Made by a program: the position numbers and the translations under genes
Shown here: one piece after another, positions 7,752 to 13,147 of the stretch
Layout: the number at the start of each line of letters is the position of its first letter
Numbering within the stretch: the first letter of the stretch is position 1
Notes under the pieces: model-generated
What the model was told of the DNA's origin: nothing
What the model saw: only the letters and a program-made list of their open reading frames with translations
Database searches by the model: none
Assembly (NCBI GenBank): GCA_013359135.1
Contig: JABWCN010000025.1
Span: 1 to 60,678 of the forward strand
Direction of reading: 5' to 3'
Source of the DNA: Pseudobdellovibrionaceae bacterium
GTDB lineage: Bacteria; Bdellovibrionota; Bdellovibrionia; Bdellovibrionales; Bdellovibrionaceae
DNA length: 60,678 nt

Positions 7752-8606
7752 TTACTTTATGTTGAGTACTTTGTTTTGTAAGCTCAAATTAAGCAAAAGC
7801 TGTTTCATTTTGATGTTTTTGCTTGAGCTTTCATCAGAGCTATTAAATTTCAGATTTTTTCCATTACTGATAAATGAACTAGTCTGGTTATTTAAAGCCA
7901 TACTTTTAGCAGTCTTTAAAGACGGCATATTAGCTGAAGAATTGGTGTTTAAGTTGGCAATTAAACTTTGAGATGAAGATATAATTATCGAATTAGGAAC
8001 TTTAATAAATAATCCGATACCACTACTTCCTGTGTTACCAATAAATACACCACCAAGTCCATCCACTTGAGAACCAGTTGGAAGATTTAAAAAAAGAGTA
8101 CTGGCTCCTGGAATGTACTTGTTAATGCTATCAAATAAAGGAATAGCAAGTGCTACACCGAACATCATTGAAGTGTCACTACCACCCAAGTAAAGTTTAG
8201 AAGAAGTATTGAATCTAACGCTGACAACACCATTTAGACCTGAAATTGGCAAAGCATTTCCGTTAGGAAGGAGGTTGTCGTTCGCAAACTGATTGTTGCT
8301 AATCTCTGTGAGGTTAGCATCAACTAGAAGGTTATTTTTACCTTCTAGAGTTCTTTGTAAGGTGACTTTTCCTAAAATTTCTTTTGGAAATCTTGGATTA
8401 GCAATTGGAATTGTCAAAGATGGAAAACTGAGGCCTCCCATATTAAGCTGAGTATCCATGGATACCCAGACGTTCTGATTGTTGTCTTGGGACGTATTAA
8501 CAGTTACTTTTTCAATGATACTGTTATTCCCACAAGCTGAAAGAGCAGCAACTACAGTAAACAACATAGCAAGTTTAAAATAGTTTTTTGAATGCAGTGA
8601 TTGCAT
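7752..8606 (-). CDS. Lipoprotein of unknown function
   Basis: The 284-residue product has a lipoprotein signal with lipobox LSAC (Cys25) after MLFTVVAALSA. The mature part has beta-rich, Gly/Asn/Ser-rich sequence (many short NLxL and SxxLxL repeats), low in charge. The C-terminal 50 residues are Ser/Lys/Asn-rich. No family is recognised. The start is supported by AAAAGGAG upstream. A 17-bp palindrome lies 15 bp before the start codon, and a candidate structured RNA lies further upstream, so this gene may be regulated. It is probably envelope-localised. Confidence 0.6.
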   Translation of the reverse strand: MQSLHSKNYFKLAMLFTVVAALSACGNNSIIEKVTVNTSQDNNQNVWVSMDTQLNMGGLSFPSLTIPIANPRFPKEILGKVTLQRTLEGKNNLLVDANLTEISNNQFANDNLLPNGNALPISGLNGVVSVRFNTSSKLYLGGSDTSMMFGVALAIPLFDSINKYIPGASTLFLNLPTGSQVDGLGGVFIGNTGSSGIGLFIKVPNSIIISSSQSLIANLNTNSSANMPSLKTAKSMALNNQTSSFISNGKNLKFNSSDESSSKNIKMKQLLLNLSLQNKVLNIK

Positions 8607-8620
8607 TGTTTCTCCTTTTG

Positions 8621-8637
8621 TTTGTCATTCTGACAAA
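8621..8637. promoter_or_regulatory. 17-bp palindrome upstream of the lipoprotein gene
   Basis: TTTGTCA-TTC-TGACAAA is a perfect 7-3-7 dyad immediately upstream of the ribosome site of the 7752-8606 gene. It could be a repressor or activator operator, or an RNA hairpin in the 5' untranslated region. I see no second full copy elsewhere in the window. Confidence 0.4.
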
Positions 8638-8717
8638 GTTAAGAAATCACGAAAATTTTTGCTGATCGTGACTTCGTTTTTACAAAAAGAGTTAGGTTTT
8701 TTTAGCTCCGGAAGACT

Positions 8718-8841
8718 AAAAAAAAGTTCAGAACATCTGCGGGGCGGGCAGCTACAACAGAAGCCAGGACGATATCTGAGTTATCCATAACTCAAAGGGA
8801 TGCATTCCCTATTTGTTTTAAAATAGGCTAAAGCAAATGTT
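8718..8841 (-). ncRNA. Candidate structured RNA (unassigned)
   Basis: This GC-richer island stands out from an AT-rich gap. Its ends pair as AACAUUUGC (8841-8833) with GCAGAUGUU (8740-8732) when read on the minus strand. The one non-Watson-Crick pair is G-U on that strand but C-A on the other, which favours minus-strand transcription. Inside are a GAGTTAT/ATAACTC hairpin (8778-8793), an AGGGA/TCCCT hairpin (8796-8810) and a CCTATTT/AAATAGG hairpin (8808-8827). The last two share three bases, so they compete. A run of eight U follows the closing helix (8725-8718). It resembles no RNA family I can name. It could be a small RNA or a leader of the lipoprotein gene. Confidence 0.4.
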
Positions 8842-9093
8842 GGGCACAGTTTTTTATGTAACATTTAATTCTTATCTATTTGAAAAAATTAAGGAATACT
8901 ATTTTGATAAGTTTGTAGTTTTGTTTAAAAAATGACATCGAAAAATGAGCATACATAAATTTTCGGTTTAAAAGTTAAAAGCATTTTTATAAGTAAGAAT
9001 GAACAGTTAGTTTGAATAATTAAGTGAAAATCTAATAAAAAATCTGTGGTTGACCAAAGTTCCTACAAAAAAACGTTGTTTTGGCTACGTAAC
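8842..9093. other. AT-rich gap without recognisable gene
   Basis: This stretch lies between the structured RNA candidate and the end of the TolC-family gene. It is AT-rich, has no ORF with a convincing ribosome site and shows no strong hairpin. It may hold the promoter for the RNA candidate or lipoprotein gene, but I could not pick out convincing -35/-10 boxes. Confidence 0.4.
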
Positions 9094-10494
9094 TTATTTT
9101 TTTAATTCCAGGTATTTTTCAATGTCATAAACTAAATTTAGATAGTCAATAAGACTTGAAAACGAGCTTTCATTTTGGTCACTAATCAATTTAATTTTGA
9201 CTTCTAGATTGTCGAAGTACTCAATCATTGTGTCTGTGTTTTGGTCGGGATTTATTTTAGTTTTTGCGTTAAGAATTTGGCTTTTGCCTTCTTCAAACTT
9301 TTGTGAAATTTCTTTTTTGAGATTTTGATATTCATTGATCAACTTTTGCAGAGTAGCTCGGGTAGAAATCATATTGGAGTGAACTGATAAAAGTTGGCCA
9401 ATCAAATCTTTTTCTGCCTGTGCTGCCATATCAACAGCTGCAAGAAATTGATAGTGAGCCGCTGTATATTTAGAGTCTCGAGTTTTATCGAACAATCGGT
9501 AATTTAAAACAACACTAGCAGAATTTTCATGACTGTTGAAGCGGGTGGCATCACTGTCACCATTTGAATAATATTTAGATCTATCATTATTGTAACTTGA
9601 ACTAACGACAAAATTTACTGAAGGACCATTAGAAGCAATTAAAAGAGTTATTTTTTTATTCTCTTCGTTGACTGAATTTTTTAAAGCCAGTAGAGTCAAA
9701 TTATTTTCTTTAAGATAATTAATGGATTCCTCAAGTGAGGGTAATTGTTTTGCCAATAGCAGATCACTGAAGAAATTTTTAATTTCAGTAATTTGCTCTG
9801 GAGTCATTTGTGTAATGGGAAGTGGTTTTTTACCTGTAAGGTGATGAAGCTCAATGGATAGGGCGTTGGCAAAGTTTCTGACAGATTCTGCCTTTTGCGA
9901 ATATTCGTCAATTTTGCGTTGAATCCTGTCAGCAATTAAAAAGTTTTTAAAAACAGAACTTTTATCTTGCGAAATATTTAAATAAAAACTCATTGTCGTT
10001 TTGAGATCTTCATAATGTTTTTCAAGATAACTATATTTTTCCCAGGCGGTAAATAGTTTCAATGTTTGAATAATAAGTGCTTGTTTTACTAGCTTGTAGT
10101 TAATTTCGTAATTTTGGACATCAATTTTAGCTAGTTCTAGAGCGGTTTTTCTGAGGCCACTATCATAGAGTTTCCAAGAAAGGCTTACTGCTCCGTATTT
10201 ACTGTGGTATTGAGTTGAGGAGTTAATATCAGGGCGTTCTGCTTTTGAATAATGATCTTGAGAAAATCTTGTTTTTAAACCAAAATCTAGATCTATTGTT
10301 GGATAAAACTTATCATAAGCAGTTTTAACCCCTTCTTCGGAAGCTAATAATTTGTAGCGAGCTACAGAAATTTTGGGGTTGCTGGCAAGAGCTCCTTGGA
10401 CATACTCAAAGATGGTAGATGCTGATAAAATATCCAAAAAGAATAAATTTAAAGTTATGATAAAATAATATTTAACTTTACAACAAGTAGCCAT
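9094..10494 (-). CDS. TolC-family outer-membrane efflux/secretion channel
   Basis: The 466-residue product has an N-terminal hydrophobic export segment (about 8-26). Two half-repeats of long coiled helices follow, with FEYVQGALASNPKI near 28-41 matching the OEP opening ('..AL..NP.l..a'). FYPTIDLDFGLKTR and a second strand segment near SVVLNYRLFD are the outer-membrane beta-strand regions expected of TolC. It would form a trimeric channel across the outer membrane with an inner-membrane partner. No membrane-fusion or pump gene is adjacent, so the partner is unknown. The start codon and ribosome site lie inside a strong hairpin (10492-10520). Confidence 0.82.
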   Translation of the reverse strand: MATCCKVKYYFIITLNLFFLDILSASTIFEYVQGALASNPKISVARYKLLASEEGVKTAYDKFYPTIDLDFGLKTRFSQDHYSKAERPDINSSTQYHSKYGAVSLSWKLYDSGLRKTALELAKIDVQNYEINYKLVKQALIIQTLKLFTAWEKYSYLEKHYEDLKTTMSFYLNISQDKSSVFKNFLIADRIQRKIDEYSQKAESVRNFANALSIELHHLTGKKPLPITQMTPEQITEIKNFFSDLLLAKQLPSLEESINYLKENNLTLLALKNSVNEENKKITLLIASNGPSVNFVVSSSYNNDRSKYYSNGDSDATRFNSHENSASVVLNYRLFDKTRDSKYTAAHYQFLAAVDMAAQAEKDLIGQLLSVHSNMISTRATLQKLINEYQNLKKEISQKFEEGKSQILNAKTKINPDQNTDTMIEYFDNLEVKIKLISDQNESSFSSLIDYLNLVYDIEKYLELKK

Positions 10495-11908: not shown

Positions 11909-12312
11909 ACGGTTTTGTGGATGATTGCTCTTGTTTAATGATCTTTTGATTATTTGATTGACCTTTTGGTTTATCAGCAAGGGAGGAAAGTCCGGACTTC
12001 ATAGAGCAGTGCAAGGGGTAACGCCCCTCCGTCGTAAGGCGAGGAACAGTGGAACAGAGAGAATGTCCAGGGCTTTGAGCCTGAAAACGGGAACGGGAGT
12101 TTTCAGGGGAGCTGCTGGAGTGAAAACAGCTAAACTCTGCACGAAGCAAGATCAAATAGGAAAGCGCAAGTAACTCGGCTCGGGTGAGGCTTTCGGGTAG
12201 GATCGCTTGAGGGATTTGGTAACAAATCTCCCAGATAAATAGTCATCTAAAATAACAGAGACACTTTCGGGACTTTGTTATTGGGACAGAATCCGGCTTA
12301 TAGCAAAACCAC
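11909..12312 (+). ncRNA. rnpB: RNase P RNA, bacterial type A
   Basis: The catalytic RNA of RNase P, which removes 5' leaders from tRNA precursors. Conserved blocks are visible: GGAGGAAAGUCCGGACUUC (11979-11997), GGGUAGGAUCGCUUGAG in the 3' half (about 12196-12212), an AGAUAAAUAGUCAUC block (about 12233-12247) and the terminal GACAGAAUCCGGCUUAU (about 12285-12301). The ends are set by pairing of GGUUUUG (11911-11917) with CAAAACC (12304-12310), the P1 helix. Both ends are approximate to a few bases. Two short ORF-like frames overlap it but are chance. Confidence 0.95.
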
Positions 12313-12341
12313 TTCCCATTTCCCTTTTAGAGGGAGTTTCC

Positions 12342-12360: not shown

Positions 12361-12493
12361 TACTTCTATTTACCTTATCTTAGAACGAGCCTTAAACAGG
12401 TAGAGACAAAAAGATACCAAAACAAAAATTTATATCAGGAACATGTTTTGCTTATCATAGGTGTGTCAATCAAACTTTAACTGGGGGAAACTT

Positions 12494-13147
12494 ATGAAAA
12501 TCTCAAAAAATACACAGCCATTATATTTAATGATTACCATGTTATTAATATCAATAATCAATATGCAAACAATAGATGCTGCGCCGGGGGCGAGGCCAAA
12601 TCCTCCAAGGTACGACGAAAGAAGGCCTGGTTATATTAGACCAGAGCCAAATAGACCCGTTCCTGGATACCCTCGATATGATAGGCCTGAACCGATATAT
12701 CGACCACAGCCAATTAGACCTATCCCTGTTCCAATTCCTGTACCGATCAGACCAGCTCCTATTTATCCTCCAGTTTATCCTGCGCCTGTTTATCCTAGTC
12801 CTATTTATGAAAATCCTGGTTATAGTAATTATGAGACACAAAAAATTCTATTTTTAAATCGAATGGTAAGTGGAGAGAGTTTTAATTTAGGAAGCTTGCT
12901 AAATATAAATTCTTATTCTGGTTTTCGTTTGAATCAAGTTCGAGTGAATGTGATATCATCTGCAGGTTCTACAATTCAGCTGTTAATTAATGGAAGAGTT
13001 GTGGACTCTCAGTACAGCTATGGAGAAGATGTTTACTTAAATCCTTCATATGAAGATGAAATTGGATATGAGGTTTCAAGCGTGCGCTTAAGAGTCAAAG
13101 GAAGTGCTTTCATTAGAAATGTTACAGTAGAATTGTCAGACCGTTAG
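12494..13147 (+). CDS. Exported proline-rich protein with C-terminal beta domain
   Basis: The frame is open from 12461, but the ATG at 12494 follows GGGGGAAA and starts a proper signal peptide (MKISKNTQPLYLMITMLLI, cut after DAAP). Residues of about 32-110 are a proline-rich tract with P-R-Y, RPxP and alternating PIP/PVP repeats (Pro, Arg, Tyr, Ile), probably an extended surface or periplasm-spanning rod. Residues of about 120-217 form a compact beta-rich domain (SGESFNLGSLLNI, VRVNVISSAGS, VRLRVKGSAFI). No family is recognised. It follows rnpB on the same strand but is probably a separate transcript. Confidence 0.6.
   Translation: MKISKNTQPLYLMITMLLISIINMQTIDAAPGARPNPPRYDERRPGYIRPEPNRPVPGYPRYDRPEPIYRPQPIRPIPVPIPVPIRPAPIYPPVYPAPVYPSPIYENPGYSNYETQKILFLNRMVSGESFNLGSLLNINSYSGFRLNQVRVNVISSAGSTIQLLINGRVVDSQYSYGEDVYLNPSYEDEIGYEVSSVRLRVKGSAFIRNVTVELSDR

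Follow-up and report, generated by a model that had tools for sequence, protein, structure and literature searches.

A conserved, structured 5′ leader of a lipoprotein gene in Bdellovibrionaceae with a candidate CsrA-binding hairpin

The described systems closest to the locus studied here are the flaA leader of Campylobacter jejuni, controlled by CsrA and FliW, and the hag leader of Bacillus subtilis, which fold a hairpin with an ANGGA motif in its loop and carry a second GGA at the Shine-Dalgarno sequence. The lipoprotein leader that we describe from Bdellovibrionaceae shares this arrangement, as well as paired changes in the stem and the presence of both CsrA and FliW in the genome. It differs in that the gene encodes a lipoprotein rather than a flagellin, the predicted sites are 85–170 nt apart, and the leader is longer and carries extra hairpins. 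A second precedent is the ANGGAX hexaloop on a stem, described as a high-affinity CsrA/RsmE site in PMC4005645. In our leaders A(A/U)GGAU likewise sits directly on a stem, although its flanking A and U can pair to leave a GGA-containing tetraloop and the host lies outside the Gammaproteobacteria. A third is the sigma54-dependent promoter: a site resembling GG-N10-GC lies at the start of the leader and RpoN is encoded in all genomes of the genus, but the −24 GG is TG in the window and three congeners score weakly.

The window, that is the whole analysed stretch of 60,678 nt (contig JABWCN010000025.1), comes from a 3.84 Mb Pseudobdellovibrionaceae genome. A sequence-only reading had picked out 8718–8841 as a structured RNA that prefers the minus strand and might belong to the leader of a lipoprotein gene. 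The element is situated between that gene and an outer-membrane efflux-type gene (9094–10494), both on the minus strand (Table 1). The lipoprotein, whose LSAC we take to be the lipobox, matched no Pfam family in any of the three members tested and has a homologue in all five congeners (47–54% identity over the alignment); these congeners are Bdellovibrionaceae metagenome assemblies, among them Bdellovibrio sp. 28-41-41, UBA2351, UBA2316 and MAG-402. A DNA search with the element gave no match in 98 genomes besides its own, and in its own genome only the window itself, so orthologous gene positions were compared instead. A block aligning with the minus strand of the window is present upstream of the lipoprotein gene in four of the five congeners (loci L004–L007) and comprises hairpin 1, hairpin 2 and a box starting CCGYAG; in the fifth (genome G003, locus L003) the leader is shorter and hairpin 2 is missing, and the distant homologues L010–L015 were excluded from the leader alignments. 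The efflux-type gene is matched, at 83% identity, in just one of the five congeners, and there on a contig other than that of the lipoprotein gene; it is mobile or frequently lost, and the conserved block thus travels with the lipoprotein gene. Minus-strand positions 8821–8604 are very probably the 5′ leader of this gene, and a structured RNA on that strand and in that place is what the sequence-only reading had proposed. None of the titles and abstracts in the open-licence literature searched describes a leader of this lipoprotein.

Table 1. Features of the lipoprotein leader and its surroundings in the window
Feature	Position	Strand	Remarks
Lipoprotein gene	7752–8606	−	Homologues L003–L009 aligned; the leader belongs to this gene
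Shine-Dalgarno sequence AAAAGGAGA	8611–8619	−	From sequence; includes the second ANGGA
U8-containing hairpin, U8AG... CUA7	8697–8724	−	From the fold; specific to the window genome, absent in relatives
Hairpin 3 region	8728–8769	−	5′ side weakly supported
Hairpin 2, hexaloop AUGGAU at 8788–8783	8776–8795	−	Predicted CsrA site
Hairpin 1, AGGGA-AUGCA-UCCCU	8796–8810	−	Congener counterpart longer, with 8 pairs and paired substitutions
Predicted transcription start	8821, ± a few bases	−	Predicted from promoter geometry, 12 bases past the −12 C
Sigma54-like −24/−12 element TGTGCCCAACATTTGCT	8832–8848	−	Contains the whole 5′ arm (8841–8833) of the closing helix

Comparison re-cut the element that had been drawn by eye: its closing helix fell, and a hairpin loop that had gone unremarked stood. 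The GC-richer island is real (GC 0.43 at 8700–8819 vs 0.21–0.31 on either side), as are the internal hairpins, and the folding energy of 8718–8841 is unremarkable against shuffles (z = −1.24 on the minus strand, −1.95 on the plus strand). The nine-pair closing helix is likewise present (8841–8833 with 8740–8732), its sole imperfect pair being G-U on the minus strand and C-A on the plus strand as claimed, and long-range helices of at least nine pairs with at most one G-U arose in 4.25% of 400 dinucleotide shuffles. It is not conserved, however, since its columns in relatives form 4–6 of the 9 pairs (two Watson-Crick plus two to four G-U). Because its 5′ arm AACATTTGC (8841–8833) includes the −12 part of the sigma54-like site, the helix is probably not transcribed; if the promoter is right, an RNA starting near 8821 could not form it, and the two mutually exclusive hairpins of the earlier reading would reduce to one, AGGGAAUGCAUCCCU.

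These two hairpins (8826–8809 and 8810–8796), which have bases in common, and the run of eight U that comes after the element had suggested a competing-hairpin switch in the leader, as in a metabolite riboswitch or attenuator. We find this hardly credible. The first hairpin straddles the predicted start, beginning upstream of it, and nothing in relatives aligns with it; the U8 run is present in the window but absent in relatives; and no intrinsic terminator (a GC stem followed by a U run) was found on the minus strand, the only such site (8796–8810) being on the plus strand. The unpaired conserved core is confined to the hairpin 2 loop and a short 3′-side box, and no Rfam family, riboswitches and 6S RNA among those searched, reached its gathering threshold, in agreement with the remark that the element resembles no recognised RNA. 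A match to STnc550 (17.9 bits vs a threshold of 48) was taken as chance, and identity with 6S RNA was excluded, the 6S RNA of the window genome lying on another contig.

Covariance models place the conserved structure at this locus. Model R1 includes the window, so that its match there is by construction, and the matches that it makes in 10 genomes from other genera (E = 0.13–0.84) were treated as chance. The held-out model R2, built from L004–L007 alone without the window, scores highest in the window genome at 8814–8729, minus strand, with 28.6 bits (E = 0.013 over the genome and 0.00029 in 86 kb), followed by a next best of 19.8 bits. In G003, R2 also scores 26.6 bits on the strand opposite to a coding frame (L086), a match that we rejected for lying opposite a long open frame, and 28.6 bits alone is therefore not decisive; the match in the window is convincing because it is placed at the orthologous position and strand.

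In the structure alignment (five leaders, four distinct rows), helices 1 and 2 are paired in 100% of the cells with letters, the window's shorter hairpin 1, left unaligned by MAFFT in the helix 1 columns, being counted as a gap there. Helix 3 is less consistent (75–79% of cells paired), and the 3′ side of hairpin 3 (8742–8727, CCGCAGATGTTCTGAA) aligns with the conserved congener box. In helix 1 two pairs differ on both sides (G-C/A-U) and one on a single side (G-U/G-C), and helix 2 has three one-sided changes (A-U/G-U, U-A/U-G and U-G/U-A), all of them standard pairs. The stem of hairpin 2 is conserved, among congeners hairpin 1 differs through paired changes, and the pairs of the closing helix are not conserved. 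With four distinct sequences, covariation is within the range of shuffles, 158 of 500 of which reach the count of double-changed pairs and 313 of 500 the covariation score.

The same changes bear on whether the conserved block might act instead as a DNA site, such as a regulator palindrome, or as a separate small RNA, either of which we consider very unlikely. Hairpin 2 is near-palindromic as DNA, and eight attack-phase small RNAs are reported from Bdellovibrio bacteriovorus in PMC3627812. However, the G-U forms of helices 1 and 2 on the minus strand correspond to A-C on the plus strand, so that the stem changes break a DNA palindrome, and conservation extends to the hairpin 2 loop, which is no palindrome. 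Beyond the orthologous leaders the six genomes match the pattern, one mismatch being allowed, in three places, each of them inside a long open frame. The small RNA with its own terminator that the earlier reading had offered was not borne out, as the minus strand has no terminator-like site and relatives lack the U8 run.

Hairpin 2 is conserved in both stem and loop. Its loop reads AAGGAU in the four congeners and AUGGAU in the window, the sole difference (A to U) falling at the N of ANGGAX, and it is presented on a stem in the form of a high-affinity CsrA/RsmE site; in the minimum-energy fold the flanking A-U closes and leaves the tetraloop UGGA or AGGA. Among the 404 ANGGAN hexamers on both strands of the window, two lie on stems of at least five pairs and hairpin 2 alone has an eight-pair stem (the next best has five), and ANGGAN on at least seven pairs occurred in 0.1% of 3,000 shuffled leaders. 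An ANGGA hairpin loop is found in the 5′ leader in five of the six genus genomes (the window and L004–L007, not L003). CsrA and FliW are each encoded in 6/6 genus genomes, their matches lying ~310 bases apart on one contig in the window genome, and all three CsrA sequences read have L4 and R44, which we take to contact RNA.

The second GGA lies in a Shine-Dalgarno sequence that reads AAGGAG in the window, L003 and L004 and AGGAG, without A at −2, in L005–L007; being ordinary for a Shine-Dalgarno sequence, it is a weak criterion for CsrA. The two GGA sites are separated by ~85 nt in L005 and by up to ~170 nt in the window, well above the optimum of 18 nt given in PMC4894983. We regard CsrA as the most likely partner for hairpin 2 to bind, an assignment to which we give an even chance. 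CsrA targets in Bdellovibrio appear little studied in the open-licence literature searched, where the titles and abstracts returned for CsrA with Bdellovibrio contained neither term. As a separate observation, ATGACAAACAAAAGGAG is common to the window (8612–8628, AATGACAAACAAAAGGAG) and L003 (before the start codon, GATGACAAACAAAAGGAG), and the rest of these two leaders is unlike despite it.

Flagellin leaders provided an internal check (49 matches, 30 of them given loci and 29 with a recognisable start). In the orthologous leaders L093–L098, a hairpin bears AAGGA at its tip or elsewhere in its upper part in 6/6 and a second ANGGA lies at the Shine-Dalgarno sequence in 6/6, the same layout as that of the C. 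jejuni flaA leader in PMC4894983. The AAGGA hairpin of these six is ~37–40 bases before the start codon and resembles the hag and flaA CsrA sites. Across the flagellin sample enrichment is only mild, with ANGGA hairpins of at least five pairs in 7/29 flagellin leaders vs 7/52 window genes and 4.9% of shuffles. This mildness, together with the long distance from the GGA loop to the Shine-Dalgarno sequence, also fits a role for the leader in protecting or stabilising the mRNA, or in binding some other protein, with the GGA loop incidental and CsrA uninvolved. Hairpin 1, at the predicted 5′ end, keeps pairing as its sequence changes, as a shape-dependent stem would. We regard such a role as somewhat unlikely, because the hairpin 2 loop is kept to the letter save at the N of ANGGAX, which mere stability of a stem would not need.

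The leader starts at a putative sigma54-type promoter. Scored with a matrix built from 41 published E. coli sites, the site in the window is the best of 284 positions (7.7 bits, shuffle P = 0.078). The corresponding site scores 11.7 bits in L003 and 13.1 in L008 but only 1.7–2.0 in L004, L005 and L007 (ranks 3, 3 and 2); it ranks first among 284 in the window, L003, L006 and L008, second in L007 and L009 and third in L004 and L005. Combined by Fisher's method over six lineages, with one of L005–L007 representing that clade, P is 2e-4 or 6e-4 depending on the member chosen. A scoring with other weights, by which the aligned site was best in 8/8 loci, was set aside for this matrix, which is less favourable. 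TTTGCT is aligned in 8/8 loci, two of them from another genus, and the −12 GC is kept in all eight; both G of the −24 GG are kept in 6/8, the exceptions being the window (TG) and L003 (GT). Among the 41 E. coli sites, potF and ygfT lack the first G, like the window, and clpP lacks the second, like L003. RpoN is encoded in 6/6 genus genomes. Of the distant homologues, five of L010–L015 were scored, and one has a far-off site of 7.3 bits, the remaining four reaching 0.6–3.6. A FliA promoter was considered and rejected, the leaders matching the consensus TTAAG-N16-CCGATA (PMC3627812) at only 7–8 of 11 positions and in scattered places. On balance, transcription of the leader from a sigma54-type promoter is somewhat favoured.

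The best explanation of the locus, in our judgement as apt to hold as to fail, is a sigma54-type mRNA of the lipoprotein whose translation is repressed by CsrA. Transcription would proceed from the promoter at 8848–8832, starting at ~8821, and an activator would then be needed. The leader RNA would form hairpins 1 and 2 and, more loosely, a third structure. A CsrA dimer could bind A(A/U)GGAU at the tip of hairpin 2 with high affinity while the other RNA-binding face of the dimer engages the Shine-Dalgarno GGA, which would block ribosome entry; a fall in free CsrA, in this genus plausibly via FliW during flagellar assembly, would release translation. If so, the leader would be a concrete CsrA target in Bdellovibrionaceae. 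It is conceivable, though rather unlikely, that these leaders form a lineage-specific class outside Rfam that brings a surface lipoprotein under joint control of sigma54 and the CsrA-FliW flagellar checkpoint, its production then keeping pace with the building of the flagellum.

A further sigma54-like site, of the same form as in L005 and L007, occurs elsewhere in the window on the plus strand (12436–12452, CAGGAACATGTTTTGCT, 8.3 bits), after the RNase P RNA (11909–12316) and just before an open reading frame for a proline-rich secreted protein (12461–13147).
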